Shown one piece after another: positions 23,523 to 63,000 of a stretch of 64,000 bases of DNA. Both the position numbers and the translations under genes were made by a program. This DNA is from Thraustochytrium sp. TN22 (Eukaryota; Sar; Bigyra; Thraustochytrida; Thraustochytriidae). A model generated the notes under the pieces. That model saw nothing but the letters and a program-made list of their open reading frames with translations. It ran no database searches and was not told where the DNA came from. How positions within the stretch are numbered: the stretch's first letter is position 1; every line of letters begins with the position of its first letter. Location of the stretch: the NCBI GenBank assembly GCA_013306675.1, contig JABLUY010000080.1, forward strand, positions 62,001 to 126,000. The letters run 5' to 3'.

Positions 23523-26500
23523 ATGATCCCGCTCAGCGACGTGCGCAAGTCCGCCTCCTTCGTGGGCACGGGCACGGGCACGGGCACAGGCGCAGATGCA
23601 GGCACGGGCGCAAGCGGGCCTGCGGCCGAGCCCATCAGCTTTTCCCTCGGCCAGGGCGCCACGGCTGCCGCGGAGAAGCAGGCCGTTGAGGAGAGGGACT
23701 TAAAGACGGAGACCAAGCACCAGAGCCGCGTTACAGGCGGCGCGTCGACACACAGACGACGCGATTCGCAAGTGTCCTCAGTGAGCACCGACTCAGAGTC
23801 GGGTCCGCGCCACCCGAAGATTGACTCGTACTATGAGGGCCGCTTCGGGTTCGGGCAATACCCGATCGTGTTTAGTCCTGTAGTCCTCGGGTGCGTCGGG
23901 CGCGAAAACCCGGTGCGGCGCGTCTGCATTGCGGCGGTGCGCACGCTGGCCTTTGAGTCCTTCATCCTGCTCCTGATCCTTGCCAACACCGTCCTCATGG
24001 CGCTCTGGGACCCGGTGGACGACATCCTGGGCATCGAGTCGTCGCTCAATCGCGGCATTCAGATCATGGAGTGGGTGTTCTTGCCAGCCTTCACGCTCGA
24101 GGCCGTCATCAAAATTATGGCGCAGGGCGCCTACGTGCGGCCATCCGGGTACTTTCGCGAGGTGTGGAACTGGCTCGACTTTGGCATCGTCCTCCTTGGC
24201 TGGATTCCTGTGGTGGTCATGGCCATCTCGCCGAGCACGGACTCGTCGGTCACCTCGGCACTCACCATCTTCCGTATGGTGCGCGTGCTGCGGCCGCTGC
24301 GTGCGCTACAGTTCTTCCCAGACCTCAGGAACCTGGTCAAGACCATCCTGGGCGCGGCGCTCTCCATTGGCGCCGTCCTCCTGCTGTGCGTCTCGGTGCT
24401 CACAGTCTTCGCCATCATCGGCATCACGCTCTTCAAAGGTAAGCTGCGCCAGCACTGCGGCGTGCTGTCGGACCCGGTCACGGGGACCTGGGCGGTGCCG
24501 AGCGACGAGGTCGACCAGTTCTGCAGCATGGACCCGGACAGTCACGGCCGCGCGTGTCCAGACGGTCTGCAATGCATCGTGACGGACTTCAACCCGAACG
24601 GCGGTCTGCAGAGTTTCGACAACCTCGGTGTGGCACTCCTCACGGTCCTGCAGATCATCACGCAGGAAGGCTGGTCCGACATCATGTTCTCGCTGTTTGA
24701 CACGACCTACTCCATCGTCGGCGTCTACTTTCTGCTCCTGGTACTCTTCGGCTCGTACATCATGGTCAACCTCATTGTCTCGGCACTCAGCGTCAACTAC
24801 ATGCTGGTGCGCAAGCAGGACGCGCACAAGTCGGGCCTCGAGAAGGAGCGCAGCAGCTTCATGGAGACACTCGTGGCGCACGCCGAGTCGCGCAACCGCT
24901 CGCTCATACGATTCCTCTCCCTCGACCTGCGCTCGCAGATCCGGCAGATGGAGATGCGCCTCATGTACTCGTACGAGCAGCACCGCGACGACCCCAGCTA
25001 CACCCTCGTCACAGACGAGATGTACGCCCGCTATTACTCGCGCAACCTCGCGCAGTACGCGCGCTTTCGCCACCGCCTCGACAAGAACCTGCGGCGTCAC
25101 GCCATGGTCCGCCATCGCACCTCTACCGTGCAGTACCGCATTGATGGCCTGCTGCCGCCCGGATTCACCTCGACCTCCCCCACTCGAACGGACAGTGAGG
25201 AGGACGACCTTGGCGGCGCGGGAACCGCCACGGTGGCGGACGACGGCGACCCGCAGGCGGCGCGCCACATCAGAAAGCGGAGCAGTCACGACCAGGGTTT
25301 CAGCGACGCCCACGCCACGCTGCACGGTATTTACGAGTCCTTTCCGGGCTCGGGCGACCTGGAGGCGGGTGGCGTTCCCTCTCTGCCGCCTTTGCCTTTG
25401 CCTTTGCCGCCACCGCAGCCTTCCAAGGAGGACTCCTTTTCGTCGTTGCCGTCCGAGTCCGTCGCCAAGGAGGCCGGGCTCGCAATGGTTGCCGAGGAGG
25501 AAAGCGTGGGGCCCGCTGCGGAGGCCAATGGCGCGCACGCGGCCGGGGCGCGCCGCCCGCGCCTCTCCGTGGGGAGCAGCTACTCGAGCCTCTCAGGGTA
25601 CCACGACGCCCTGGAGGAACGACGCGACTCGCTCGCGTCCGGGAGCGAGCGCAGTGGCGAGAGCGAGAGCGCCGCGACGGCGCCCGCGCGCGGCCTTGCT
25701 GCCGCGCGGCGCGGCAGGGACCTGCGCGTGCAGACGTCGGGCTTGCAGCGGCCGGCGCTGGGGTTGTCCCCATACGCGTCCGCCTCGACGGAGATGGCGG
25801 CGAACGCCACGGACGCCGAGGAGACGGTAAACTCGCCCGAAGCGGCGTCCTCGTCGGGGACGTCCGAGGAGACGAGCAGCCCAGACGTGCCGCCATGGCG
25901 CCTCGCGCTCTACAACTACGTGGTGCGGCGGCTGTGGTTCAAGCTGGCCGTCATGGTGCTCATTCTGCTCAACACTGTCATTCTGGCGTCCGAGCACTTT
26001 TTGCAGTCCGACTGGCTGACCAACTTCCAGGAGACGTCCAACCTTGTGTTCTTGGCGCTCTTCTCGCTCGAAGTCGTGCTGCGTCTTGTCGCGGAGGGCT
26101 GCGAGCACTACTTCCGGCCGTGGTTCAACCGCTTCGACTGCGTCGTCATTCTCTTTGGCTACGTGGAGCTCTTTATCGAGGGCAACATCGCGTCGGTCTT
26201 TCGCCTGCTGCGCATCCTGCGCTTCTTCAAGCTCGCGCGGTATTGGCCGAGCTTCATCGACCTCCTGCGCTCCGTGGACGCTACCGTGAAGCAGCTCTGC
26301 CCCTTCCTCGTCTTCTTTGGCATCTTTTTGTACATCTTCACGGTGTCCGGCCTGCAGCTTCTGGGCGGCCGGCTCGTGATTGACCTGGAGATCCAGGAGG
26401 CCGCCTTTGTGTATCCGGAGGGCGTCGCGGTGCCGGACGACGTGCTGTCGCCGCCGGAGCGCAATCCTGATTTCGACTGCACGGTCCAGGCCGGCAACTT

Positions 26501-29500
26501 TTGGCGCGCGCTGCCCAATGGCACGCACGTCTGGCACTGCCCGGAGCGCGCCAACTACGACAACTTTCTGTGGGCGCTGGTGACCAGCTTCCAGGTCATC
26601 TCGGGCGAGGACTGGAACGGGGTCATGGCTTCAGCCGTGGAGCAGACGGGCCACCGCTGGATCATTCTGTACTTTGCCTTTCTGGTGCTCTTTGGCACCT
26701 TTATCGTGCTCAACTTTTTCCTCGCCATTCTCGTCGACACCTTTGTGGAGTTGCACATGAAGCGCAAGGAGAAGAAGGAGAAAAAATCGCGCCGCAATCG
26801 CATCATGCGCATTCTCACGGGCCGAGGGTCGAGCGAGGGCGCCGCCACGAGAAACGGCGACGGCGAGGGCGACGGCGACGACAACGCCACCGAGCACGGA
26901 TCCGAGGCGAGCAGCGCCAGTCGCCTCCGCGACGTCCTGCCCGCGCACCGCCAGCTCTCGGGAGCGGCCGCTGGTCATGGTGGCGGTGGCGGCGAACCCG
27001 CGCCTGGCGACGTGCGGCCGGCCGTCCTTCGCCCGCTCACGCGCACGCCACCGCCCGGGGCGGACGCCGGTTCGGACTCGACCGAGTCCACCACGCCGAG
27101 CCCAGGCTCCTCGGCAACCATGATGACCGCGCCGGTGCTGCCGGCGTCGGCATCGCCATCGAGCCTGCTGCGGCCGCTGGACCGATCCACGAGCCTCAGC
27201 GTCAAGCTGCCCGAGGTGACCTCGGGCAAGACGCCGCCAGCGTCGAGCCGGGCCGCCGCCTTGCGCGATGAGGGCGCCGCGCTGGACTCGGAGGCGGCGA
27301 CGCAGCGGCGGGCGCGCCAGCAGCGCAAGATGTCCTCCCTCAAGGACGTCCTGGACAAGGAGACGCAGCATATCTACGATCTCTCGGAGGATGAGATTCT
27401 CGAGCTGGACGCGTACCAGCACAACTCGCTCTTTGTCATCCCGCCGCGCAGTCAGCTCCGGGTTCGAGTGGGTGTGCTCGTGCACAAGGCGTGGTTCGAT
27501 GTCTTTATCCTCGTCGTCATCTTTGTGAGCTGCCTGTTGCTGGCCATCGACACGCCGCAGTCGGACCTGAACCGCCAGGCGCTGGATGCAATCAACTTGG
27601 TCATCACCATCATCTTTGCGCTGGAATCGGCGCTCAAGATCTTTGCCTTTGGCTTTGTGCGCGGGCGCGGCGCCTACCTGCGGGACCCGTGGAATGTGCT
27701 GGACTTCTTCATCGTCGTCATCTCGCTCGTGGACGTGAGCCTGCCGAGCGCTGACACGGGCAGCCTGCAGGTGTTGCGCGCGCTGCGCGCGCTGCGGCCC
27801 CTGCGTACGATTCGCAAGTTTGAGGGGCTGCGAATCGTGTTCTCCTCCTTTACGCTCGCCATTGTGCCCTGCATGCAAGTGCTTGCGCTCTGCGTTGTCT
27901 TTTATGTGGTCTTTTCCATTTGCAGCACGACCTTCTTTTTGGGCCGCCTGCACGCGTGCTACACGTGCACGCCGGACGGGGACTCCGAGGTGTGCGCGCG
28001 CAACTACACGGGCGGCGCGCCCAACTGCTACCTGTACCCGGAGTACGGCGTTACGGAGGAGAACTGTCCGATGTCGCGCCAGTGCGTGGGCGCGGTGACT
28101 TTGGCGGACGGGAGCAACGGCACGCTGCGTTGGCTCAACCCGACATACGGGAGCCTGACGTACTATTCCGAGGAGACGCGGCCGTACTCCTTCGACAACT
28201 TCTTGGAGTCCTTCATGCTGCTCTTTGAGATCTCCTCGATGGAGATTTGGATGGAGCCCATGTACTTGGCGACGGACACCACGGAGATCGGCTTTGAGCC
28301 CGTGCGCGGGAGCAACGACGCGGCTTCGGTCTTCTTCATCGTCTTCATCTTCGTGTTGCAGTTCTTCATGCTGCAGGTTTTCGTGGCGGTGCTCATTGAC
28401 ACTTACTTTGACTCGGCCGACGCGGAGCGCGGCGACGCCTTCATGACGACCGAGCAGCGTGCCTGGGTCGACTACACGCGGCGTGCGCTGGCGCGGCCGT
28501 TCAAGCCGCATGCGCGGCTCAAGGTGCCTTCGGGCGGGCGCCTGCGCGTGCTGTGCCACCGCATCGTGACGAGCGAGCGCTTCGAGCTGGCGATTTTGGC
28601 GGTCATCTCCCTCAACACGATCCTGCTCATGACGGACCACGCGCCGGCATCCGAGGGCTACGAGGTGGCCATGACGGTGCTTGACTCCATCTTTGGCGTC
28701 ATTTACGTCCTGGAGGCGATGCTCAAGATCGTGGGGCTCGGTCCGCGCGAGTACTTTGGGTCGCGCAGCAACATCTTTGACTTTGTGATTGTGCTGGCGG
28801 TGCTGGTGAATTGGTGCGTGACGCTCGTGCCGGCCACAGCGAACGAGGCCGGCCAGCTGCTGCAGGCCATCGAGACGGTGCGCGTGCTGCGCGTGATGCG
28901 GCTTCTGTCCAAGTTGCGGCCCGTCAAGCCGCTGCTGTCGACGCTCGTGTACACGTTTTATCCGCTGCTCAACACGCTCGGCATCATCATGCTCTTTGAC
29001 TTTATCTACGCCATCCTCGGCATCCAGCTCTTTGGCGCCATTGACCTCGACGCGTATCCGGCGGACCGTATGGAGTACGTGAATGGCCACATCAACTTTA
29101 GCACCTTTCCGCGCGCCTTCATGACGCTCTTCGTGATGAGCACGGGCGAGAGTTGGAACGGCATCATGCACGACCTCGCCTTCATTTCGCGGCACGCAGT
29201 TTGGTACTGCATCAGCTATGTGGTCATCATGCAGCTGCTGCTGCTCAACCTCTTTGTGGCGGTGGTGCTCGCCAGCTTCGCCTCGCAGTTCGAGCGCGGC
29301 AAGAACAAGGGCGGCGCCAAGGAGCACATTGACGAGAACGCGCTCCGGGACTACAATGTGCAGTGGAACCACGTGCACCTGGCCTACGTGCGCGACCTGG
29401 AGACCATGTACAAAGTGGAGCAGAGGCGGCTCACGGCGGACACCGGACCGGCTGCACTGGAAAAGGCTGCCAAGATGCTGGACCGCGCGCGAAGGCACGC

Positions 29501-29819
29501 CTTCTTCTTGCCGGCCACCAAGTTCCCGGACCTCATGCTGCGGCTCAAGGTGCCGCTCGGCTTTCGGAAACGGACCAAGAAGGCCTACTTTTCCGCTGGC
29601 GACGTCATGCGCTACGTGCGGGACCGCCACATTCCGGTCACGCGCGACGGCATGATCCATTTCCACGCGACGCTGCGCGCGCTCATCAACATCAACGTGC
29701 TGCAGGGCCAGGTGCCGGAGGACGTGGAGAAGTTTTTGCAAATCAAGCTCTCCGCATACACGCGCGGCGTGGACTTTGGATCGCTGGATCCCGACAGCAA
29801 GGCGCAGTTGCAGCCGTCT

Positions 29820-29857
<38 letters not shown>

Positions 29858-30188
29858 GCGCCTCAACGCGCTGGCTCATGTCAACAAGCTCTCCCGGTCC
29901 CCGCCGTTCCGCAAGCGCGGTAATGACTCGGGCGCGGTCGACGCGACCGACACCGAGGCCACGGACGTGAGCTCCGTCACCTCGGAGCCTTCGCTCTCGC
30001 GCATCCTTGCGCGGCAGCAAATCAAGAAGCTCATCCACAACTATGCCACGGTTTGGCGCATTCGCCGCATGCGCAAGAACGGCGCTAGCGAGGCGTCCAT
30101 TCGTGCCTGGGTCACGCAGAACGACGCGGAGTTCTCCAGTGCCAACGCGCCCGATATCCCGGGCCTCAGCTATCCCATTGTAGACTGA
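23523..30188 (+). CDS. Four-domain voltage-gated cation channel with an EEEE selectivity filter
   Basis: The 2221-residue protein has four six-helix domains at about residues 130-430, 797-1076, 1317-1629 and 1684-1926. Each has an S4 helix with regularly spaced Arg/Lys (for example RMVRVLRPLRAL and LRALRALRPLRTIRKF). The pore loops carry Glu two residues before Trp in all four domains (E382, E1029, E1574, E1876), the pattern of Ca2+-selective channels. Domain III is divergent: its filter reads SSMEIW after LLFEI, resembling the SLEGW context of fungal Cch1 or NALCN more than TGEGW of animal CaV. Long disordered loops join I-II and II-III, and the III-IV linker is short as in CaV/NaV. The C-tail has a post-S6 helical region, a poly-Gln run and an IQ-like segment near residue 2180. 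It probably carries Ca2+ at the plasma membrane or flagellum. Confidence 0.92.
29820..29856. repeat. (CAG)n repeat coding for poly-Gln
   Basis: About 12 CAG/GCA units encode a poly-Gln run in the channel C-terminal tail. Confidence 0.9.
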
Positions 30189-30269
30189 TTGTGCAGCCGA
30201 GACTCATGCAAGAACAACGTTGCGCAGCAGTCTCGGTCGCCAGCCATCTGAGTCATGCAAAAGATCCTC

Positions 30270-31890
30270 GATCTTGATCCATTGCTCTCTTGGACAAAAA
30301 GAGAGCCTCTTCTCGTGATGTATTCGTCATTACTGCAGGGAAAGCGAACGCGGGATGTGATCCCTCTCGAGCGCTGACACGCGCACAGCGTCGGGATCTC
30401 GATCTTGATCCATTGCTCTCTTGGACAAAAAAAGAGACCCTTCTCGTGTTGTAGTCGTCATTGCACTGCAGGGAAAGCGAACGCGGAAATGTGATCCATC
30501 TCGACCGCCAACACGCGCACAGCGTCGATCTTGATCCATTGCTCTCTTGGACAAACAAAGAAGCCCTTCTCGTGTTGTAGTCGTCATTACACTGCAGGGA
30601 AAGCGAACGCGGAAATATGATCCAATTCAAGCGCCGACACGCGCAGAGGTGACGACGCCGCGATGCATGGTCTCCAGGGTGATCTCGGATGCGCGCATGT
30701 CGATCCACGCCGTCATCTGGTTGCGCTCCAGGCCTTGGGAGAGGTCCTTGACGATGCCCGCAGCCTGCGACTGCATGTGAGAAAAGAAGAAGTGGTAAGT
30801 TGGGAGCTCCATCAGCTCCAGACGGAGCGGCTCGTACGCCCAGGCTTCAAGGCTGGAGCTCTGATCGGGGCACGGATGCATGGCCCGTCGGATCAGGCTG
30901 AAGCGGTTCGAGGAGTTCCTCTCCCGGAGCACTCTCCAGTGCACGCGCAGCAGCCGGTTCGACAAACGCTTTTGCTTTTCGACGGGCTGCATCCACTTAT
31001 CATGGCGACCTGGGCGGAGAGGTTTGAAGTCATTCTCATCATCGGCCCACTCGCTATCGCCCGGTTCTGCATGCTTCACGTGCGCTACGGGGTCCACTCG
31101 TGCGACTCCATCCTCCTGAACCGCGCCCTCCATGGCGTCCCAGAAAGGGTGCTGGAGAAGCTCTCCAAGACTGATGCGCTCAGCCGGGTCCCCGCGCAGG
31201 CAGAGCCGGACCAGGTCCTGGGCCGCCTCGATCTCGTCGTCCGTCCCGTCGAGGCCAAAGGCCTGCTGCTTGCCCGCCCTGGCGCGCGAGCGGCTCGAGC
31301 GACGCTTCCTCGAGGTGGCAAGAACATCCTTCGGGGCCCTGCGGATCCGGCCCAGGCGTTCCTCATCCAGCCCGAGCCAGTTCATGAGCTCCACCTGGTC
31401 GCGCGAGAGGACGAGGTTGTCGTCCGACTCGTCCACCATGAAGAGCTTGGTGCCGGACAGCATCTGGAACAGGACCGCGCCGAAGCTCCACACGTCCAGC
31501 GCCGCCGTGCCCTCGACCTGAGAGCTCTCCCCGTCTGCGGAAAACAGCCTCTTTGCCACCTCCGGCGCAGCGTAGCCAGAGCTCGTCTTCTCGCTCAAAG
31601 GCTGGCCGAGTGGCACTGAGGCGTCCAGGTCGATCAACATCCAGCGCTCGGCAGCTTGGTTGCCCGCACCCGCTTCACCTGATCGCCAGGCGCCCGCGAC
31701 GCGAAGACCGCCTTTGTCATCGTCTTCGAAGGTGCGCGATAGCGATGCAGAAATGCGGACCACGTTCCGCGGCTTGATATCGCCGTGGATTCGATTGCTC
31801 GATCTTGATCCATTGCTCTCTTGGACAAAAAAAGAGCCTATTCTCGTGATGTATTCGTCATTACTGCAGGGAAAGCGAACGCAGGATGCT
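30270..31890. repeat. Array of ~130-bp repeats interrupted by a kinase-TIR fragment
   Basis: The marker GATCTTGATCCATTGCTCTC occurs at 30270, 30401, 30527 and 31801, all in the same orientation. The first three units are spaced 131 and 126 bp apart. Each unit continues with TTGGACAAAA, a variable stretch, CTGCAGGGAAAGCGAACGC and ACACGCGCA. The third unit is complete up to about 30652; the next marker appears only after 1.15 kb of kinase-TIR sequence. The last unit runs into the 3' end of the TMEM131-like gene, whose final codons (RSLSLQ and stop) are the CTGCAGGGAAAGCGAACGC element read on the minus strand. The array therefore repeats the tail and 3' flank of that gene. Confidence 0.85.
30653..31798 (-). 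pseudogene. Kinase C-lobe plus partial TIR domain, gene fragment inside the repeat array
   Basis: The frame is open throughout (about 382 codons). It begins abruptly at the kinase catalytic loop HGDIKPRNVV, with the N-lobe absent, continues with LIDLDAS in place of the usual DFG, the GYAAPEV activation-segment motif, DVWSFG, and an end-of-kinase helix. After a linker it enters a TIR domain: YHFFFSHMQ, then AWIDMRASEITLETMHRGV. The TIR stops there and repeat sequence follows, so about half the TIR domain is missing. DLDA-type kinases joined to such TIR domains are, as I recall, found in stramenopile and other algal genomes. Both ends coincide with repeat-unit sequence, so I treat it as a captured fragment, not a functional gene, although the uninterrupted frame suggests the event is recent or the piece is still used. 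Confidence 0.75.
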
Positions 31891-34800
31891 AAAGTGCTCC
31901 TCGGGGATTTCGTCTGCATCCTCGCCTTGCTGCTGCTCCTGCTGCTGCTGCTGCACGTGCTGCTGCGTGTCGAGGTGACTGAGGGAAGACAAGACAAAGT
32001 CCTGTGGTACAACGCCCTCCAATCCCGGAGGCGGAGGCAAAACAGTGCCGGATGACGAGGAAGAAGGAACGCGCGTAGGCCAGGCGAAAGCAGCGGTGGA
32101 CACGGGCGCCTCGTTGGGGTCTGTGGTAAAGTCCGGCAGGCCAAAGAAGTCACCACCAGCGCTACTGCCGCGGCTTGGAGGCTGCGGAATGGGTGCCGGA
32201 GCTGGGCTAAAGTAGGTGCTTTGGCTGGGTGTGGAGCCAAAGGGGGCGTTGGCCTGTGGGTCCAAGAGACTCGCGCCGAAGATGCTGCCGTTGATGTTGG
32301 TGCTGGGGGTTGGTCCGAGCAGCGAGCTGGGGCCCGGCGGGTCGCGCCACATGTGTGAGAGCGCCTCGTCACCCATGGCGCGCGGCGAAGGCTGCTGCAG
32401 CGGCGGCGCATCCGCCATGTGCGAGCCGTAGCGGGTCGGGACTTCAGGCTGCGACGGGCGCCGCTCCCGCGTGCGCCACGAGTAGCGCGTGGGCGAGTCC
32501 CAGACGGAGGCGGGCGAGGCGTCGGACCTCGGCGAGGAGGCGGGCGGGGGCAGACGAGGCCGGTCTGCCGTCGCGCTACGATGCAGGAGATTTCGCGCAG
32601 CGGGACCAGCTTGGGTCGGCGCGACGGGCGGCCGGCCGTCGCTCAGGTCCTGAGAACCCCCACGCTTCCACGGTGCCTCACGTGGCCACCGCGGCGGCGG
32701 CACGGAGGACACGGAGGGCGGTGCGGCGATCTCCTCATGACCGCGCGAAGAGCGTCCCAAGGAAGCGCTCGATGACGTCGAGGCCCAGCGTGGTGGTGGC
32801 GGTGGTAGCACGCGGCCCCCGGCCCCGGCCGGCCTGAACGGCGACGCTGCAGTCCGCGACGCGGGTGCGGGCGGCGCCGGCGCCGGGCTCGGACCCACTG
32901 CGTGCGGCGGTTCCTCCAGCTTGATGCTGCTGGATTTTTTGCGGCGGCTGCGCTTCTTCTTGCTGGTGGCTTTGAGCTCGGTCTCACCGAGTGGCGAGGA
33001 TCCCGATTCGGACGATGCGGACGCGCGTGGTGCTGTGGCACTCCCAGGGGGGTCTTCGGCCTGCGCGTCAAGGTCCTCGGGCCGCAGTAACTTGGGTGGC
33101 GAGCGATGCTTGGGTGTCGGCGCAGGCACTCGCTCTCGCGAAGAGGCTGCGGGCGACGACGGCAGCGGCGAATCCTCCTGGAGTCCTGGTGTGTCAGGCG
33201 TTGCAGGCGCCGTGGACGGTTGAGGCGTTCCAGGGTGTGTTGTCGGCGGGCTTTGGTTTCCTGGCGTTCCACCAGGCCCTGTCGAGGTGCTGCTTGGCGT
33301 TCTCGGTGTTCCAGGTGCTTGTGATGGGCCAGACCCAGGCTCCGTGCCAGGCGCTGTCTCCTCTGGGCAGGGTGGCTCGCTCTCCACTTCAGGCGTGTGG
33401 CCTCGTTGGAGCGTCGCCGGAGCAGAATCAGCAGGAGCAGGGACGGATGTCGCAGGGTGGAGGGTCTGAGTCTTGATGTGCATGATGGATTTGAGTGGGG
33501 CGGCCCGCATGTGCTGCGAAGAAAGCCAGGCGAAACTGGCAAGGAAAAGCACGCCAAAGAGAATCGTGGTGCGATTCTCGAATAGAGGGTCGAGCGGAGC
33601 CCAGAAGAGTCTGCGCTCCTCCTCTGCGCAGGCTCGAAAGACGTCACTGTGGGCGCCGACATGAAGGCCCAAACGGATGCGTTGGTCGCCATTGGCAATC
33701 ACCTCGATAAAGGCGCTCTGGTTCCCCGCGGCGCATGCGAGATACTGATCGACGTCCACGTTAAGACTCCCAAGCGGGTGGAGCACGAGCGGAAGGGGCT
33801 CAGCGCTGCGGATGTCCAGGTGCAACGGGCCGTCGTCGTCCGCGGCGGTGCGAGGCGACGGGACAAGTCCGCGCACCTCGATGGACTCGGTCTCGAGATT
33901 CCAGAGGACGAGGCGCCGAGAGGCGCGCAAGGTGACGGAGCGGCCATCCGCGAGCACATGAAAGCGCTCCGCAATGGCTGGGTCGGCAGTGAGGTCTAGG
34001 TCGAGGGCCGGGCACATTTGGCGCCATGGCGCAAAGGCTGGTGGGTCGTCCATGATGGTGGCGGAAGTCGACGGCGCCGCGAGGAGCATGGCGGCCCGCG
34101 TGCCCCGACCCGTGAGGTTGGCGCGGAGCGTGCGCGTGAGGTTGGTGGCGAGCTGGAGGCTGCCACGCACGTCGCGGTACGCATGCGCGTCCTTGGGAAG
34201 GAATTGAATGGGGCCAAACTCGTGCGCGCCTTGCGGGGGGATGACGAGGCTCTGGTCGCGCAGGTCCGAGGGAAGCAAAAACGGTGAGGGAGCGTCGGCG
34301 TCCGCCTCGAGGGCAATGAAACGAACCTCCATGGCACGCTGCTTGGACGGGTTCCGCAAGAGGATGGTGTGGGCGGCGTGGGATCCGACGAGCGTCTCGG
34401 AAAAGTCGATCTGCGAAAGGGGCACGAGCGGACAGGAGACGGCGTCGATGGTGACAGGGAGCGCGAAGCGCAGGCCCGTGAGGTTGGAGGCGATGGCGAC
34501 GTCGAGGTGGACGTCCGTGGCGAGAACGTCTGCCGTCTCGGCGACAGCCTGCAGGTCGTGGCAGTCGTGCACGAGACGGCTGCAGGCAAGCGAGGCAGAG
34601 GCAGAGGCAGAGGCGGCGGAGTCGCCGCAGCGACTCATGTTGATGACAAGGTCGCCCAGCGTAGTGGTGGTGAGCGGTTGCAGGACGAGCGGGTCGGGCA
34701 TGGACAGCAAGACGCGCGGGTCGTTGGCGGCGGCCCAGTGGATGGCCACTGGGACGCGAAAGGTGCTTTGAATCTCGATGGGGCCAAAGCGCGCCTCGTC

Positions 34801-36927
34801 GCCAAGCACGAGGTCCTTGACGTGCAGCGGCGCTGGGAGGCTGAGCAGGAGCTCGCCCGGCACGATGTCGGCCTCGATGACAATGGTGAGCGCGAAGCCG
34901 TCGCTGGTTCGCAGCACCCAGGTCTCGGACACGTGGTCGGCGCCGGGCTGCACGAATTCGCGTAAGAAGAGGATGTCGAGATCGACCTCGGCGCGCGAAT
35001 GCGGCGGCAGCGTCTCGGGGAAGACTGCGCCGCGGGCGAGGCGCACGACGCTCTCGGCGGCGCCCGGCAGGCGCTCGCGCTTGTGCACATGCAGCGGGGT
35101 GGCGTTGTCGTTGGCGATGATGAGGCGCACCTGCGTGCGGGAGTCGAGCGCGCAGTTGGCGAGGTGGATCTCGACGCGGTCCCAGGCGAAGGGGGCCAGC
35201 AGGGCGGCGTCCGGAAGACGGATCGCCGAGGCGCGTAGGCGGCCGTGGTGCAGCAAAATGGGAACGACGACGCGCGTGAGATTGGTGTGAATGAGCACGG
35301 CGCGCGTCTTTTGGGCGCCGGTGCTGCAGAGGACGTCGCGCTCGCTGAGCTGTGCGAGCGGCGCGGCCGAGAGCGGGATGGGTGGAAGGGGGTCGCCGGG
35401 CGCCACGACGGTGCCAACGACGCTGGCCGGGTTCCACCCGTCGCGAAAGCCGACCCAGTCGAGTGGTGGTGGTGGTGGTGGTGGTGGCGGCGGCGGCGGC
35501 GTTGGCGTTGGCGGCGTCCCCGCGTCGGCGCAGGGCGACTCGTGCGCGTAGGGCGCTCCGTGGTGCTCGAGCGCGACGATCTCGACGTCAAGAAGTAGCA
35601 GGGGCTCCTGAAAGGTGTTCCAGGACTGGAGCGGCTTCATGGCGGTGCTGTGCGCCGCGGCGGCCAAGGTCAGCGTGAAGGAGGCCGGCTCGGTCTCGAT
35701 GCTGCCGGTCCGCAGCCGGGCTTCCACCGGTGTGCGCACGATAACCTCGGTGGTGACATCGTGGTGTGAAGGGTCGGCGAAGAAGAAGGCGACCTCCCCC
35801 AGAAGGTCGCCGTCCTCTTGCGCGGCGCCGGCGAGGCTGACGAGCGCGGCCGCCGGCAGCCATGCCCCGGGCTCGAGCAAGGCGGGCACGGGGACAATCT
35901 CGGCACGCAAAGAGTCCTGGTGGCTCGCGCCCGTGTCGAGAAGAGGCGTGATGCGATGTATGGAGGTGATGACGTTGGATAGGACTCGAGGCGCGGGGCT
36001 GAGGTTGTGCAGCGCCAGGACTTGGTGGTTTGGCAGGGCGAAGGCGTAGGGCTCGGACGCGTTGCGGCGTGTGAGTGTCCCAAAGGAGATGGCGGGTGGG
36101 TCGACCGCGACGCCGCTCGGGGTGGTGGCCAAGACCTCGACTTCGAGCGGCACGAGGAGCTGCGGCACCGGGCGGTGGTCCTCGGCGGCGGCGAGTTTGA
36201 TACGTACGAAGCCGCGATAGACGCCCGGGGTGAACGACTGGAAGGACAGGTCGGCGAGGCGGCGGCGCTCACGCGGAGGCACGGTCCACGACTCTGCGGC
36301 CTCGGGCGGCACGCGCAGATGCCAGACGCCTTCGGTGGTGAAGACTTCGTCCACGACGAGGGTGCGGTCTGGGTCCGGGTTGAGCAGCGAGAGCGAGGGC
36401 CGCCAGAGCATGCCCTTGCCGAGCAGTGCGCCGACGAGGGGCTCGAGGCCGTAGCGGCTGGGAACGGCGCGCGCCGCGATGCGAACCAAGAAGCTGCCCT
36501 CGGACGTGTTGATGTACAGCGCGGACCTGAGCGGGCCCGTGCGCCAAGGCAGCAGTGACACGCGCAGCTCGACCTGGTCGCCTGGCGTGAGCACCGTGCG
36601 CGAGAAGAGCGGCACATGCACCTGCGGGTCTGCGGCCTCCCAGTCCACGAGCTCGACGTTGCCGCCGCCTGCGGCCAGGTCCAGCGCCAGCACCACGGTC
36701 TGGAAGCTCGGCTCGCACAGCTCCACCTCGCCGAAGTCCAGGTCGCCCTCGCTCAGCCGCAGCGCGCCGCCCGTCGTCGCGCTCGTCGCGCTCGCGCCCG
36801 CCGCCGTCGTGCTCACGCCCGGCGCCGCGCACCCGGGCGCCAGCAGCGCCAGCGCGGTCGCCAGCGCCGCCAGCGCCAGCGCTGCTGCGCCGCCGCGGCC
36901 GCGCCGCCGCCGCCGCCCTGCCGCCAT
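31861..36927 (-). CDS. TMEM131-like secretory-pathway membrane protein
   Basis: The 1688-residue type I membrane protein starts with an Arg-rich leader and a hydrophobic signal peptide (about residues 13-35; ATG at 36927). The lumenal part contains TMEM131-type PapD-like modules: GDLDFGEVELCEPSFQTV, then INTSEGSFLVRIAARAVPSRYGLEPLVGA and a VDPPAISFGTLT repeat. A single transmembrane helix (about residue 1120; LFGVLFLASFAWL) precedes a Pro/Ser-rich cytosolic tail of about 560 residues. In animals TMEM131 recruits procollagen and binds TRAPPC8 through its tail; a general role in cargo export is inferred. A poly-Pro run (about 35463-35500) interrupts the lumenal part. The last six codons belong to the adjoining repeat unit. 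It is divergent from the kinesin gene. Confidence 0.85.
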   Translation of the reverse strand: MAAGRRRRRGRGGAAALALAALATALALLAPGCAAPGVSTTAAGASATSATTGGALRLSEGDLDFGEVELCEPSFQTVVLALDLAAGGGNVELVDWEAADPQVHVPLFSRTVLTPGDQVELRVSLLPWRTGPLRSALYINTSEGSFLVRIAARAVPSRYGLEPLVGALLGKGMLWRPSLSLLNPDPDRTLVVDEVFTTEGVWHLRVPPEAAESWTVPPRERRRLADLSFQSFTPGVYRGFVRIKLAAAEDHRPVPQLLVPLEVEVLATTPSGVAVDPPAISFGTLTRRNASEPYAFALPNHQVLALHNLSPAPRVLSNVITSIHRITPLLDTGASHQDSLRAEIVPVPALLEPGAWLPAAALVSLAGAAQEDGDLLGEVAFFFADPSHHDVTTEVIVRTPVEARLRTGSIETEPASFTLTLAAAAHSTAMKPLQSWNTFQEPLLLLDVEIVALEHHGAPYAHESPCADAGTPPTPTPPPPPPPPPPPPLDWVGFRDGWNPASVVGTVVAPGDPLPPIPLSAAPLAQLSERDVLCSTGAQKTRAVLIHTNLTRVVVPILLHHGRLRASAIRLPDAALLAPFAWDRVEIHLANCALDSRTQVRLIIANDNATPLHVHKRERLPGAAESVVRLARGAVFPETLPPHSRAEVDLDILFLREFVQPGADHVSETWVLRTSDGFALTIVIEADIVPGELLLSLPAPLHVKDLVLGDEARFGPIEIQSTFRVPVAIHWAAANDPRVLLSMPDPLVLQPLTTTTLGDLVINMSRCGDSAASASASASLACSRLVHDCHDLQAVAETADVLATDVHLDVAIASNLTGLRFALPVTIDAVSCPLVPLSQIDFSETLVGSHAAHTILLRNPSKQRAMEVRFIALEADADAPSPFLLPSDLRDQSLVIPPQGAHEFGPIQFLPKDAHAYRDVRGSLQLATNLTRTLRANLTGRGTRAAMLLAAPSTSATIMDDPPAFAPWRQMCPALDLDLTADPAIAERFHVLADGRSVTLRASRRLVLWNLETESIEVRGLVPSPRTAADDDGPLHLDIRSAEPLPLVLHPLGSLNVDVDQYLACAAGNQSAFIEVIANGDQRIRLGLHVGAHSDVFRACAEEERRLFWAPLDPLFENRTTILFGVLFLASFAWLSSQHMRAAPLKSIMHIKTQTLHPATSVPAPADSAPATLQRGHTPEVESEPPCPEETAPGTEPGSGPSQAPGTPRTPSSTSTGPGGTPGNQSPPTTHPGTPQPSTAPATPDTPGLQEDSPLPSSPAASSRERVPAPTPKHRSPPKLLRPEDLDAQAEDPPGSATAPRASASSESGSSPLGETELKATSKKKRSRRKKSSSIKLEEPPHAVGPSPAPAPPAPASRTAASPFRPAGAGGRVLPPPPPRWASTSSSASLGRSSRGHEEIAAPPSVSSVPPPRWPREAPWKRGGSQDLSDGRPPVAPTQAGPAARNLLHRSATADRPRLPPPASSPRSDASPASVWDSPTRYSWRTRERRPSQPEVPTRYGSHMADAPPLQQPSPRAMGDEALSHMWRDPPGPSSLLGPTPSTNINGSIFGASLLDPQANAPFGSTPSQSTYFSPAPAPIPQPPSRGSSAGGDFFGLPDFTTDPNEAPVSTAAFAWPTRVPSSSSSGTVLPPPPGLEGVVPQDFVLSSLSHLDTQQHVQQQQQEQQQGEDADEIPEEHFSILRSLSLQ

Positions 36928-37547
36928 TGCCTCGTCTGCGTTTGGGTTTGCCAACTTTGCCCGTCTGCGTCTGCGCTTGCGCGCACACGGTGAGCATGGA
37001 TGGCCTCGTTGGCAACGTCGGCGCGCGCGCGACAGAGAGAGCACTGGCAGGCACCAAAGAAGAAGCATGGGATAGTTTTGTCAGGAGAGCGCCCCCAAGG
37101 ACGCAAAAAGTTTACGTCATGCCTGCCGGCGCTGCGAGAAAAGCCGGAGAGTACCAAAGGGCGAGGAACTTCATCATGATGCCAGCACCAGCAACAGCAC
37201 CTGCGCCAGCACCAGCACTCTTGTCCCTTTTTTCTTGTTTCTCTGTCACTCGCTGCCACTCTCACCCGCCAGGCTTGGCCCCGGCTGAATCACTCTCTCT
37301 GTGAGTCAGAGTCAGAGTCAACGTCTGTGGGGAGAATGATTTACCAACATTCGTTCGTCCCGCAGGCAGGAACCTCTGTAACCTGCGGAACGCATTGTGT
37401 CAACGGATCTAGCAGTTAGTTTTTCGTGGCGGCGGCGCCGGTAGCAGATAAAATGCAAGATCGAGGTCGAAGGAGGCGGCGGTGGCCGCGCAAGAGCACG
37501 GCACGGCGCAGTGGCAGAGCGATAGATTGCCAAGGACGGCCGCAAGC
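36928..37547. promoter_or_regulatory. Divergent spacer between the TMEM131-like and kinesin genes
   Basis: 620 bp with mixed composition, a CAGCACCAGCAACAGCACC-type run near 37184-37220 and a GAGTCAGAGTCAGAGTCAA triplication near 37302-37320. It should contain both promoters. No gene was seen. Confidence 0.4.
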
Positions 37548-50860: not shown

Positions 50861-51550
50861 CCAGGCCGTGTGGCCGGCCAACTATGTGGCCAACAACGGA
50901 GAATGGCCAACAAGAAAAGGCCGCGCCGTATGGCCAACAAGAAAAGACCGCGCCGTATGGCCAACAAGGAAAAGGCCGCGCCGCATGGCCACAACGAAAG
51001 GCCGCGCCGTATGGCCGGCCAACAAGAAAAAGGCCGCGCCGTATGGCCGGCCAACAAGGAAAAGGCCGCGCCGTATGGCCAACAACGAAAGGCCGCGCCG
51101 TATGGCCAACAACGAAACGCCGCGCCGTATGGCCAACATGGAAACGCCGTATGGCCAACAAGAAAAGGTCGCGCCGTATGGCCAACAAGGAAAGGCCGCG
51201 CCGTATGGCCAACAAGGAAAAGGCCGCGCCGTATGGCCAACAACGAAAGGCCGCGCCGTATGGCCAACAAGGAAAAGGCCGCGCCGTATGGCCAACAACG
51301 AAAGGCCGCGCCGTATGGCCAACAAGAAAAAGGCCGCGCCGTATGGCCAACAACGAAAGGCCGCGCCGTATGGCCAACAACGAAAGGCCGCGCCGTATGG
51401 CCAACAAGGAAACGCCGCGCCGTATGGCCAACAACGAAAAGGCCGCGCCGTATGGCCAACAAGGAAACGACGCGCGTCATCAGTTTATGGCCAGGCCGCA
51501 GGGCCAACAAGGAAAAGCCGCGCGTCATTTCAGTATGGCCAACATGTAAG
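50861..51550. repeat. 27-29-bp minisatellite, about 20 units
   Basis: The unit contains GCCGCGCCGTATGGCCAACA followed by A/C/G-rich AGGAAA or ACGAAA. About 20 copies follow each other from about 50920 to 51470, with unit lengths of 27-30 bp and occasional GGCC duplications; both borders contain degenerate TATGGCCAGGCCG. The array lacks stop codons in five reading frames, giving long frames such as runs of Ala-Pro-Tyr-Gly-Gln-Gln. I regard these as by-products. There are no spacers, so it is not CRISPR. Confidence 0.92.
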
Positions 51551-51564
51551 AGTGAGACTGTGCC

Positions 51565-52515
51565 AGTGCTTTGCTTTTGGAGTTGGTCGTGCGTGAGACG
51601 TGCGCAACGCTAATCACGAGGACTGTCACCGTTCGAAGCGCTGCCTGCTCGTCCCATCGCGAGCCTTTCGCCAAGTACAGCTCTATCGTCCCGCTTTACA
51701 ACGACCCCGCACCTGAGGTCAAGCGAGGCGGACGCGTCCGGGTCACCGAAAGAAGCGGCGTCGAGAAGAGTGTCCTTGAGATTGACGGCGTCGACACTGT
51801 CATCCAAGGTGCGCGCACGAATGTTGGCGTCGGTGCTCAGAGAAGCTTACGACGCGCGGAAGCGCAACCGGCAGCAAGCGTGGCATTGACATCAAAGCCG
51901 CCGTCGTAGCAAGGAGCGTGGCATTGACATCAAAGCCGCCGTCGTAGCAAGGAGCGTGGCATTGACATCAAAGCCCCCGTCGTAGCAAGGAGCGTGGCAT
52001 TGACATCAAAGCCGCCGTCGTAGCAAGGAGCGTGGCATTGACATCAAAGCCGCCGTCGTAGCAAGGAGCGTGGCATTGACATCAAAGCCGCCGTCGTAGC
52101 AAGGAGCGTGGCATTGACATCAAAGCCGCCGTCGTAGCAAGGAGCGTGGCATTGACATCAAAGCCGCCGTCGTAGCAAGGAGCGTGGCATTGACATCAAA
52201 GCCGCCGTCGTAGCAAGGAGCGTGGCATTGACATCAAAGCCGCCGTCGTAGCAAGGACTAGGTTTGGTGGGTCGATGGTCGCAGATGTCAAACGGGCTTG
52301 GTAGCCTTGTGGAGGGCGCCGGACTTGCCAAAGCCGCGGTGGTTCTTTCTTGCTGGTGGTGCTGTTGTTGGAGATGTCGCCGAGAGCGCGTCGCCGCACG
52401 GTACTGGGCCCGCCAAGGGTCTTCTTGGCGGCGCTCCCAGCGGCGCGCTGCGCGCAGACGTGGCATCCATGGTTTGAGCAAGGACCGACTGTGTCCGTGC
52501 AATGCCGCGTTTTGC
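51565..52515 (-). pseudogene. Decayed duplicate of the D-box (securin-like) gene
   Basis: The segment is a degraded tandem copy of the gene at 52763-53326. Shared blocks occur in the same order: the 3' flank (TTTTGCTTTTGGAG and ACGTGCGC), the acidic C-terminal code (51717-51840), the middle code, then the code for the D-box end (RRxALGDISNN, about 52365-52395) and the CATGGTTTGAGCAAGGACCG 5' flank. The middle has been replaced by a 38-bp minisatellite; since 38 is not a multiple of three, and other blocks are missing, no full protein can be read. Confidence 0.75.
51879..52257. repeat. 38-bp minisatellite inside the decayed D-box gene copy
   Basis: About ten almost identical copies of a 38-bp unit (GTAGCAAGGAGCGTGGCATT plus GACATCAAAGCCGCCGTC) follow without spacers; one unit carries a G-to-C change. 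The unit corresponds to the code for the YDGGFDV-ATL motif of the intact gene. Confidence 0.95.
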
Positions 52516-55811: not shown

Positions 55812-56970
55812 GATGGAGAGACCGCCGCGCCGAGCGCTTTTGCTGGTTGGTTTGCTCCGAGTCCGCGTCGTCCCTGCCAAGTAGCCTGAGAAAGTGGAAC
55901 GCGTTCTTGCACGACAACAGAACGATTTGCAAAAGAACGATCGGAACTTCGTCTACCTTTCGAAAAAGGGCCTCTTAGCGAGATTTCGGCCACCTCCGAG
56001 CGAAACTCGGCGCCTGACCGAGGAATCTCGGCTGGGGCCGACGAAACCTCGGCGAGACCGGCCGAAGCTCGGCTGGGGCCGACCAAACCTCGGCGAGACC
56101 GAGCGAAGCTCGGCTGAGACCGAGAGCGCCGCCGGAGCGAGGGACGGCCCGGGAGGGTCCCTTTCGACGGGGCGGCGGAGCAAACGATCGTGGAGGTGGC
56201 CGTGGTGATATGTTGGAGCATGGTGGCGCCGCTCAGGCGGGCGGGGAGGTCCAAGCTGCTGTCGTCCGAGGAGCCGAGGACAGTGGGCGACACCGTCCCA
56301 GGCTCGTCCGCTGAGTTGGCAAGGGTGATCTGCTCGAACCCCGTCGGGGAAGCGTAGTTCTGGCCCGCATGCTGCGAGACCCGCATGCCCACTCGGGTCC
56401 ACGCGACTGGTCCAAGTGCTCGCCAGTCGCGCTCGCGCTCGCTCGCTCGCTTCGTCGCCGCGGCGCGGCGCACCGCGCCGCGCTTGTTGTCAAGGCGGCC
56501 GTGACCAAGGAGTCGGCCGGTAAGATGCACAAGGTGCAGCTCGTGCGCGGCGCGGAATCGAGCGCCTAGCGGCGAAGGCGAGGCGAGGTCCAGAAACTCA
56601 CCTTCGCGACACGGCCTTTCAATGGGTGATGGAGCAGAGGAAGCCCTTGTGGCGTTGGCCGCAGGTTTGCTGGGCCACGGCGATGCGCAGGACTCCACAT
56701 TGATTTTGCCAGCTGAAGAGCTGCACGTGGTGTGCAACACCATCGCGCGAACGTCCACAGAGATGATTGTATAGATCTGTTTGAAGCTCGCCGCCGCTTC
56801 AGCATGCGAGGGCGAGCTGTCAACGGCGAGGAAGTACACGCTGGACCCGCAATCCGGTCCACGCGCGCTTTGCTCGCATAGCGGGCATCGTCACAGCCTT
56901 CAAGTGCTCGCAAACGATGCTCGCGGCAGCTTGTCTGAGCCTTCGTCGCGTCGCGCCTCGTCTACGAGCG
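55812..56970. other. Spacer with short repeats and unassigned open frames
   Basis: The region contains the ~45-bp repeat at 56018-56125 and a minus-strand frame of about 340 codons (55808-56839) that runs into Zim17 in another frame. Parts of the minus strand at 56560-56850 read like protein in short stretches that change frame, which may mean a decayed gene. I recognise no family. Confidence 0.35.
56018..56125. repeat. About 42-45-bp imperfect tandem repeat
   Basis: Two and a half copies of a unit containing CTCGGCTGGGGCCGAC and AAACCTCGGCGAGACCG occur in a row. The unit has internal dyad symmetry (CTCGGC..GCCGAG). Confidence 0.75.
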
Positions 56971-57822
56971 GGAGGAGGACGGCGACAGGGATTAGGTGGC
57001 GAGCATAGCCACGTCGATGGGCGCCAAGACGCACGAGGTGCCGATCGTGCGCTGCGTGCAGGCGCGCAGCCCGCGGCAGAAGCTAAGCAAGGTGGGTGTG
57101 ACGGCCTCCATGACCTGGTTGCGGCTCGTGTGTTTGGGTTTGAGTGCCATCAGCCTGAGGTGCTTCGCGGCGGCCTGGAACTTTTCGCGGTGGTCCCTCA
57201 TGTGATGGTCAGCAGGCTAGTCGCGCCGACGCTCCTATTGATGTACGCGGCGGGCACGAGGACGGCGACAGGGATTAGGTGGCGAGCATAGCCACGGCGA
57301 TGGGCGCCAAGACGCACGAGGTGCCGATCGTGCGCTGCGTGCAGGCGCGCAGCCCGCGGCAGAAGCTAAGCAAGGTGGGTGTGACGGCCTCCATGACCTG
57401 GTTGCGGCTCGTGTGTTTGGGTTTGAGTGCCATCAGCCTGAGGTGCTTCGCGGCGGCCTGGAACTCTTCGCGGTGCTCCCTCATGTGATGGTCAGCAGGC
57501 TAGTCGCGCCGACGCTCCTATTGATGTACGCGGCGGGCACGAGGACGGCGACAGGGATTAGGTGGCGAGCATAGCCACGGCGATGGGCGCCAAGACGCAC
57601 GAGGTGCCGATCGTGCGCTGCGTGCAGGCGCGCAGCCCGCGGCAGAAGCTAAGCAAGGTGGGTGTGACGGCCTCCATGACCTAGTCGCGGCTCGTGTGTT
57701 CGGGTTTGAGTGCCATCAGCCTGAGGTGCTTCGCGGCGGCCTGGAACTCTTCGCGGTGCTCCCTCATGTGATGGTCAGCAGGCTAGTAGCGCCGACGCTC
57801 CTTTTGATGTACGCAGCGGGCA
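56971..57822. repeat. 283-bp tandem triplicate
   Basis: Three almost identical 283-bp units follow head to tail; the landmark ATTAGGTGGCGAGCATAG lies at 56991, 57274 and 57557. On the minus strand units 1 and 2 carry the same 69-codon frame (starting MREHREEFQAAAKHLRLM), while unit 3 has acquired a stop and other changes. The frame does not run from one unit into the next. I do not recognise the peptide. Confidence 0.92.
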
Positions 57823-58169
57823 CGAACGACGCGCGCTGAGTGTCTGTGTGTGTTTAAAGGGAATTCTCGAACAGGGCCAAAACCGAGTCGACGCCGCTAA
57901 GACGCCGCGGCGTCCCGCATGGCGTGGCGCTCTCCAGGAGAGAAATGCCGTCTCGTGTGTGTACCTGCTGGTTGATCACTACATCCACGACGGTGTCACG
58001 CTGTCAGGGAGTCTGCAGCTGTGGTCAGACGCGTGCTTCTCGAAGGTGCGACCGGCGCAGCACGCGCCGCTGGAGTGCCGCCGCACATCGCGAGTCTGAT
58101 GCGGGCCAAAGCCTGCCTCGCGTGCCGCACCCCTGCAACGCCTCTCCTTGCACGCTAGTAGGAGGCTGC
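57823..58169. other. Spacer before the TIR-NACHT-like relic
   Basis: 347 bp of mixed sequence with short open frames on the + strand (57848-58099) and nothing recognisable. It may be the remains of the 5' part of the TIR gene. Confidence 0.3.
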
Positions 58170-60050: not shown

Positions 60051-63000
60051 CACTGCAGGGCAAGTAATGACCAAGCAAACTTACTTTTGTTTGGATACAT
60101 GAGCTGCGATGTTCTTGAATGTGACGTCTTCGCTTTGTTTTCCGGCGCCGGCGGCTGTTCGGCGGCGCTTCTTGCCAGTCTCCCCGAAGCGCATGGCCAT
60201 GTAGTGCCTAACGCAATCGGCAAAGATGCCGCGGTCGTCGTAAAGGTTACCGGGCTCCGGCGCCCCTCCTGATATTGGACTCGACGAGAAAGGCCTCTCC
60301 TCTTGCCACTCGTGGAAAGGGTGACTTGCCCACGCCGGTAACGCCAGGCTGCCCTTCGGCCAGAAGACGACCTTGCTGTTGCGACGGTCGCATCGCTTGG
60401 CCCAGTGCGTGTCCCCAGCAGCCAGATCTTCGAGCTTGCATAGCGCGAGACTGTTCTTGTTGGCCAGGGCCAAGTCGCTGACGAGGAAGCCGCTAAGCAT
60501 CTCGCCACTGTACATGGATGCTCTCAGGGTCTGTGCACTTGAGACGTCATCTTCAAGCTGTACAGTGAGTGCCCACCCGCCAGTTGTTGCTGGCGGCATT
60601 CCGTCATTCCAAAGACAGAAGAAGCCAAGCGCTACATGAGGGCGGCAATCCCCGTCAATGAGGATGGAGGGTGGCGTTGACATCTGTGCGCGCCTGGTCG
60701 ACCTGACGCGGTTATTTCCGAGAAGGTCCGCTTTGTGGTACATGTACACGCCGCTGGCCTCCGCGAAGTGTCGCAGGAGCACTTCGAGAACGGTGCATCT
60801 ATAGAGTGTCCATAGGCCCAGGTCGTCCACCGATCGAATGACCTCGTCCACGAGAGCGTCCATCTTGAGCGGCCCAATATCGCGGCTACGCGTGCATGTT
60901 GCCGCTGGTGTGCCCTTCTTGCCTCCAACCAGACGCGCATGCGGAGTCGGCAGTGGAATCGAGGGAGGCGATACGAGGAGCGCCATGTCCTGTTCGATGC
61001 TGCGGTCAAGTAGACTCGACTGGTCCGCGTCAATGCCGTGGTTCACCGAGCGAGCTAGGCGCCCAATCCCATGGTGGGAGCGCTCCAGCATGCTGGTGTC
61101 AGTAACATCAAAGCCACCATATTGCTCAAGCTGGTCGACCATGTGGAGCAGCGCGTGAGTTTTGAGCGTTGAGACGTTGGCGAAACCATGGAGCAGACGA
61201 GCGCGTTGCACGGCGTGGACGGTATGAGCGAACTCGCGCCGAAGCTTCTCCAAGTCCTCGCGTCTGACTCGCCTCAGGCTGACATAGTACTCGGCTCGGA
61301 CCAGAGCAGCGAGCGCCCAGACTATGACGAAAACCTCGCTCTCGATGTCCACTACCTTGGACTCCTCGGGGAAGATGAGGTCACCAACGAAGGCAGTAAT
61401 CAGGGCTTTCGCGATCTTGGGATTGTCCTTCGCCACATACTTGGCCTGCTCAAGACAGTCGGCGGTGAGACCTGCTGCGTCAGCGAGCTGGTCCTGTGCG
61501 CGCTGCGTTTCCAACACGTGCCGTGGCATATGCGATACCGCGCAGCCCTTCAATGCACTGTAGAATTTCGCCACTGGCCGACCGATTGCAGCTACGAGCG
61601 CGACGGTCAGGTCCTTGAGGGGCCCGAGGGAGAGCGTATGAAGTTTGTCAAAGGGGAAGAGGAAGAACGCTCGCTGCGCGGGCCGAAGCAGCAGCAATGG
61701 TGTGTGCAGCAGCATGTTCCGCTCAAGCGGTCGGTGGGCGTGCAGGCCGTGCGATGCCTCGAAGTCCAAGCCACTTTTGCTTGGAACCAACGTCGCACTC
61801 TCCTCGACGAGCTCAAACTGGATCTTGAGGGCATCCACATCGTGTGGCGCCTTGCGCGGCATAAACAAGAGCTCGTGCGAGTCGAACTCATGCTGCTTGC
61901 TAGGGCACAGTCGGCAAACAACATTGCGCTTCGCGCCGGCGAGTGCTTGCAACTCTGCAGAGTCGCCGCAGACTAGCAGAAGAGCAGGGATAAGGCGCAG
62001 AGCCCCGTCGTTGGCAGCTTTGAACCTTAGCCCGCCTTGTCGCAGCGCGGCTTGCTGCCAGCTTGCGATATAGGCTGCGACTGCCTGCAGCACGCACTGG
62101 CGCTGCGCTCGAGCGATCACTGTGCCCAGGCCAGAGCGCTTGGAGATGGGCTCCAGCTGGAGGTAGCCTATGACGCGGGTCGATCCATCGCGCATGAGGG
62201 CATTGCGCGGCAGGTTGAGCGAGAAGATGACGATAGGGCATCGAGCGAGCTTGCCAGTCTTTGAGATAAGCGTCTCATCGATGAAAAGCCCGAGGCCAAG
62301 GACAGCTAGGCTCTCTTCGAGATCCACACCCAGCCATGGATTCACGGCGTCGGCTGCACGCTCAGACGCAGCGCGCGCGTGCTCTCGCGCAAGGCGTTGC
62401 GCGTCGCGTAGCGCGTCGCCGTCGACGACGTCAAAGAGCTCCTGCGAATCACGAGTAAAAAACTGCAAGGTCTCGCCCCGCGCCAGAACATTCGAGTTTA
62501 GAATATCGTGCACGCAGGCAACTGGGTCGCGGAGCGTCACGACAAACTCTTCCTTGACGTCGACGCCATTGTAGAGTCTGAACTTCTCTTGGTCGAAGAC
62601 AAAGTCGACCGTCATGCCCAGGTAGCTCTCGCCTGCACGCCGCAAGCCAGCACGGCTTGTTCGAGCACGAGCGCTCTTGAGTCGCCTAATAAGCAGCTCG
62701 GCATCGGTGCATCCTCGAACGAACCTGCCATCTCGCGCGAAGTCATACGCGACAGACTTGACCTCCTCGGCGAAGAGGTCACACAAACTGTCGAACGCGA
62801 CCTGCGTGATGCCGAGCTTGCTGCACAGAGCCACGCCTTTAGAGCTGAACTCGCGCAAGCATTCAGCATCAAGCTTCGCAGCTATCCGCATATCATCCAG
62901 GCCGGAACATGGGAGCGAGTCTGCGAGCATGCGGTGCAGCACCTCGCCCTCAGAGATCCCTTCGGCACTCGACTTGTCCATCAGAACCCTCCTTGGCATC

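Follow-up and report, generated by a model that had tools for sequence, protein, structure and literature searches.

A stretch of about 1.15 kb that looks like an internal piece of a kinase-TIR signalling gene lies within a short tandem-repeat array in the window (the whole 64-kb stretch of DNA that was analysed). We consider it likely that this piece, which would be non-functional, was captured into the array recently, during break repair or template switching. We favor capture because no transposon ends were found at the insert edges, no second match to the fragment and no further repeat unit were found in the window, and the fragment itself combines truncated domains with a coding-like open frame.

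The window has a GC content of 65.6% and, judging from its genes, is eukaryotic DNA. A thraustochytrid-like stramenopile would be compatible as its source. Pfam scans of 19 ORF-derived proteins identified eukaryotic genes for RICTOR, a gamma-tubulin complex component, SKIP/SNW, a kinesin, and a PI3-kinase, together with a ubiquitin hydrolase, a Vps4-like AAA protein, an Ion_trans channel, and a TMEM131-like protein; 227 ORFs of at least 100 amino acids were listed, and the scans covered 23 of them overall as well as sub-pieces. Several of the Pfam-identified genes run for more than 1,000 codons without a stop, suggesting that genes in the window have few introns. The array and its insert are intergenic, flanked by two genes that converge on them: the ion-channel gene on the left (23523 to 30188, plus strand; Pfam Ion_trans in four stretches, E = 2e-202) and the TMEM131-like gene on the right (translation at 31861 to 37068, minus strand; Pfam TMEM131_like_N, E = 6.4e-9). 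Immediately 3' of the channel-gene stop codon is an imperfect inverted repeat with 13-nt arms that are 85% complementary (30197 to 30236). Other tandem repeats in the window include a 27-bp unit in about 21 copies with 88% matches (50903 to 51475), a 38-bp unit in ten copies with 99% matches (51877 to 52257), and a 283-bp unit in three copies with 98% matches (56968 to 57825).

To describe the array, we listed repeats over positions 28500 to 33500 and inspected the sequence over 29400 to 33000. The initial annotation had described three direct units of about 130 bp followed by a split unit. We recovered the three units and a fourth, partial copy in the same orientation, starting at 30267, 30398, 30524, and 31798 on the plus strand. 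Unit 1 (U1; 30267 to 30397, 131 bp) opens the array on its left side, 78 bp past the end of the channel gene, and is followed by U2 (30398 to 30523, 126 bp) and U3 (30524 to about 30646), which is complete except for its last few bases. These three units measure 123 to 131 bp, with start-to-start spacings of 131 and 126, and are reported by Tandem Repeats Finder as 2.9 copies of period 126. U4 (31798 to 31888) consists of the first 91 nt of the unit. With up to three mismatches allowed, a 30-nt core of the repeat occurs four times in the window, each time exactly, compared with a mean of 0.00 in 100 shuffled sequences. A relaxed blastn search with U1 to U3 as queries found no further copy of the unit in the 64 kb, only short weak matches, and two exact pieces of the repeat were absent from the viral contig collection searched.

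We also considered, and rejected, coding and RNA readings of the repeat. A minus-strand ORF of 151 amino acids crosses the array (30253 to 30708); its Pfam matches have E values of 0.1 or worse, and codon log-odds for 30190 to 30645 are negative in all six frames. A search of the whole window against Rfam returned nothing at the gathering score. Permissive Rfam settings over 30180 to 31950 gave one match at chance level (E = 0.92), located within the fragment and outside the repeats. Whichever strand is folded, the predicted RNA stability of U1, U2, and U3 does not stand out from that of shuffled sequences (z from -0.76 to +1.67).

The insert occupies 30647 to 31797, with edges accurate to within a few bases, and is bordered on both sides by repeat sequence in the same orientation, as first described: U3 abuts it on the left at about 30646 to 30648 and U4 on the right. 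An insert of about 1.15 kb within the repeat run is thus borne out, but the proposal that it splits the fourth unit is not. Because U3 is missing no more than the last few bases of the unit and U4 opens at its first base, the insert sits at the junction between the two and splits neither. Close to the right junction lies a 7-nt match, which we considered as the scar of a templated insertion and discarded, as 2,354 of 4,000 random places have such a match on one strand or the other.

The insert edges also bear on whether a DNA transposon carried the gene fragment in, in the manner of the captures known from Pack-MULE or Helitron elements. We regard this as very unlikely. Comparison of the 60-nt insert ends revealed no terminal inverted repeat better than chance (80 of 300 shuffles score equally well), and no direct duplication of at least 3 bases, as a target-site duplication would leave, was found at the edges when these were varied by 3. 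An 8-nt direct match between the same 60-nt ends is equaled in 20 of the 300 shuffles. At least 24 inverted pairs occur over 30180 to 32000, and none of those listed lies at the insert edges; one pair inside the insert, 15 nt long and 80% complementary, would favor a transposon, but it is not terminal, its arms lying 56 and 7 nt from the edges. The direct repeats on either side belong to the local array. A further point in favor of a transposon is a long minus-strand ORF about 28 kb away (60081 to 63983) with a match to a Plavaka transposase that falls below threshold (E = 4.8e-5; 23.2 bits against a cut-off of 26.3).

Read on the minus strand, the roughly 1,151 bases of the insert between U3 and U4 contain an open stretch of 383 codons, consistent with the uninterrupted frame noted at the outset. 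The encoded protein starts with RIHGDIKPRN, which we take to be the catalytic-loop motif of protein kinases. A 404-amino-acid translation matches Pfam Pkinase over profile positions 121 to 262 of 263 (E = 6.6e-13), and CLK1 is the top match among the best 60 of 468 PDB sequences matched at E ≤ 1 (E = 1.4e-7). The kinase catalytic loop and C-lobe are followed by about 50 residues that are tentatively TIR-like. When the last 72 amino acids are searched alone, Pfam TIR_2 gives a weak match over profile positions 1 to 54 of 122 (E = 0.063; 14.2 bits against a cut-off of 28), and the TIR protein 7uxr is the sole PDB chain matched at E ≤ 10 (E = 0.042). The TIR_2 match has an E value of 0.14 with the last 103 amino acids; Pfam gave no TIR match for the 404-amino-acid translation at E ≤ 10 or for the whole 594-amino-acid ORF at E ≤ 1. 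The TIR label depends on two weak matches, to TIR_2 and 7uxr, which agree in register.

The coding homology is therefore probably truncated at both ends within domains, clearly so on the kinase side and, on the TIR side, by way of a sub-threshold match that ends at position 54 of 122. The insert had been proposed to begin exactly at the kinase catalytic loop and to end inside a TIR domain; the kinase start holds, a few codons before the loop, whereas the TIR end is weak. The kinase N-lobe and the remainder of the TIR domain are absent from the insert, suggesting that neither domain should work as the fragment stands. When ATG is considered as the only start codon, the nearest upstream in-frame start (31919) lies inside the TMEM131-like coding sequence, in a frame other than that of the gene, and the first within the insert (31640) lies behind the catalytic loop. 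No sign of function was found in its sequence. Single-sequence fold prediction was uninformative (mean pLDDT of 33.6).

The fragment has a coding-like composition. In its open frame, codon log-odds average +0.298 bits per codon, within the range of +0.20 to +0.45 for eight genes of the window scored by leave-one-out; its other five frames are negative or close to zero, reaching 0.004 at most. None of the 382 codons scored is a stop. In simulations of neutral decay (400 runs per step), 66% of runs remained free of stops at 1% divergence, 16% at 5%, and 2% at 10%. With one indel assumed for every ten substitutions, the frame stayed free of both stops and indels in 21% of runs at 1% and in 4% at 2%. 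Because neutral decay in these simulations rarely leaves the frame stop-free at higher divergence, the open frame points to a young fragment or, with lower probability, to one under selection. An open frame taken alone can reflect selection instead of youth, which counts against reading the insert as a recent capture.

We consider it very unlikely that the fragment belongs to a genuine spliced gene whose other exons lie elsewhere. In favor of such a gene, the minus-strand frame is open through U4 into the TMEM131-like gene, in another frame of that gene. Against it, both neighbors are long uninterrupted ORFs of other families with no Pfam match to a kinase or TIR domain at E ≤ 1, and the same is true of four further ORFs of 129 to 318 amino acids in or across the interval.

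The initial annotation also raised a more elaborate role, that of a donor cassette for diversifying immune receptors through repeat-mediated recombination. The open frame, the ends within domains, and the flanking repeats of equal orientation would suit such a role, but here a single fragment accompanies a single array, and the 64 kb contain no second match to the fragment that could represent an acceptor gene or another donor, nor any additional unit. Moreover, the piece would encode signalling domains, not a ligand-binding region, the expected target of diversification. The proposal gained no positive support within the 64 kb, and we consider it exceedingly unlikely. In the collection of genome contigs, 29 stretches matched the search patterns and 3 were relatives, all from prokaryote records and aligned over residues 10 to 141, the kinase part. 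The fragment was not found in the viral contig collection: one pattern had no match, and the other had two pattern matches, neither of them a relative. Equally improbable is a wider version in which the 126-bp unit would be a dispersed recombination sequence bordering many signalling-gene fragments and thus a reservoir for shuffling kinase-TIR genes. If receptor fragments elsewhere in the genome proved to have the same repeat at their borders, this would point to an undescribed diversification system for immune-type proteins in a microbial eukaryote.

The relationships among the units provide a second view of how the site arose. In a plain tandem array, neighboring units are expected to be most alike. 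Instead, the outermost units are the closest pair: U1 and U4 differ in 3 of 91 columns (97% identity over 91 nt), U2 and U3 differ in 6 of 94, and the remaining pairs differ in 9 to 14 of 94, counted over the columns shared with U4. All six informative columns, comprising four substitutions and two gap columns, group U1 with U4 against U2 with U3, suggesting that the repeats probably recombined or were duplicated around the insert. The pairing may reflect a native segment that was duplicated or recombined around the insert, or gene conversion at a later time, and one locus is compatible with each. We read it as a hint that the site once underwent repeat-mediated recombination, not receptor diversification.

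The right end of the array further overlaps the neighboring gene. U4 lacks the last 39 or so nt of the unit, and TMEM131-like coding sequence takes their place; the stop codon and last eight codons of that gene fall inside U4 (31861 to 31888, 28 bases including one base of the ninth codon). With these codons inside the repeat, either the C terminus of the TMEM131-like protein is derived from the repeat or the repeat is derived from the TMEM131-like gene.

These features would also fit the integration of a cassette composed of the tail of U1, U2, U3, and the fragment. Homologous recombination would have placed this cassette, carried for instance on an extrachromosomal circle, in a single native copy of the 91-bp segment, with U1 and U4 remaining as its direct-repeat borders. 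The close kinship of U1 and U4, their distance from U2 and U3, and the agreement of all informative columns fit this scheme, as do the starting base shared by U1 and U4 and the TMEM131-like stop within U4, which would suit a native segment. An identical pattern would follow from gene conversion between the two units or from a different sequence of duplications, however; the evidence comes from one locus, and two of the six columns are gaps. We judge integration of a cassette to be unlikely. The right edge of the fragment is in phase with the left edge of the array to about 1 nt; by our estimate, a random break would produce such agreement only a few times in 126, which counts against capture at a break, the explanation that we prefer.

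Under that preferred explanation, a piece of a kinase-TIR gene, probably from the same organism, would have been copied or ligated into the short tandem array at a unit junction, either by end-joining capture at a double-strand break or by template switching during repair. Recombination or duplication of the repeats, at the time of the capture or afterward, would explain why the outermost units are the closest pair. The capture would be recent enough for no stop to have arisen. Two further points count against this explanation: a parent gene was not found in the window, and the TIR half falls short of its curated cut-off and is lost when longer pieces are used as queries. A simple recent capture was the other reading offered initially, and it is supported by the neighbor-like codon usage, the stop-free frame, the truncation within the kinase domain, and the probable truncation of the TIR domain. 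The locus would then be one more example of gene-fragment capture, and the fragment is a hint of a kinase-TIR gene in this eukaryote, now or in the past. Literature searches for a kinase and TIR domain in thraustochytrids, or for TIR domains in labyrinthulomycetes genomes, found no reports.

The site can be compared with three kinds of known system. The vls, pilS, and VLR gene-conversion cassettes comprise many donors and an expression site. Here too a truncated coding piece lies beside repeats, but there is one fragment, and an acceptor was not found in the window. Proteins with both Pkinase and TIR domains have been named "Kinase TIRs" in choanoflagellates, and those that lack a transmembrane domain are described as unique to choanoflagellates within the data set of that study (PMC6040629). 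The fragment resembles them in having a kinase followed by a probable TIR domain, but its kinase part is limited to the C-lobe and its TIR part to half a domain. The long uninterrupted ORFs of the window make it doubtful that the present organism is a choanoflagellate. Our preferred explanation has its counterpart in the capture of DNA at breaks, as filler DNA or through repair mediated by reverse-transcribed products. Breaks are described as capturing pieces of genomic DNA and of reverse-transcribed mRNA in mouse zygotes and cell lines (PMC4516963), and natural breaks as being filled with mitochondrial DNA in primates (PMC2567098). Like the captures described in these reports, the insert is a gene piece whose ends are arbitrary and at which transposon ends were not detected; unlike them, it is surrounded by a tandem repeat.
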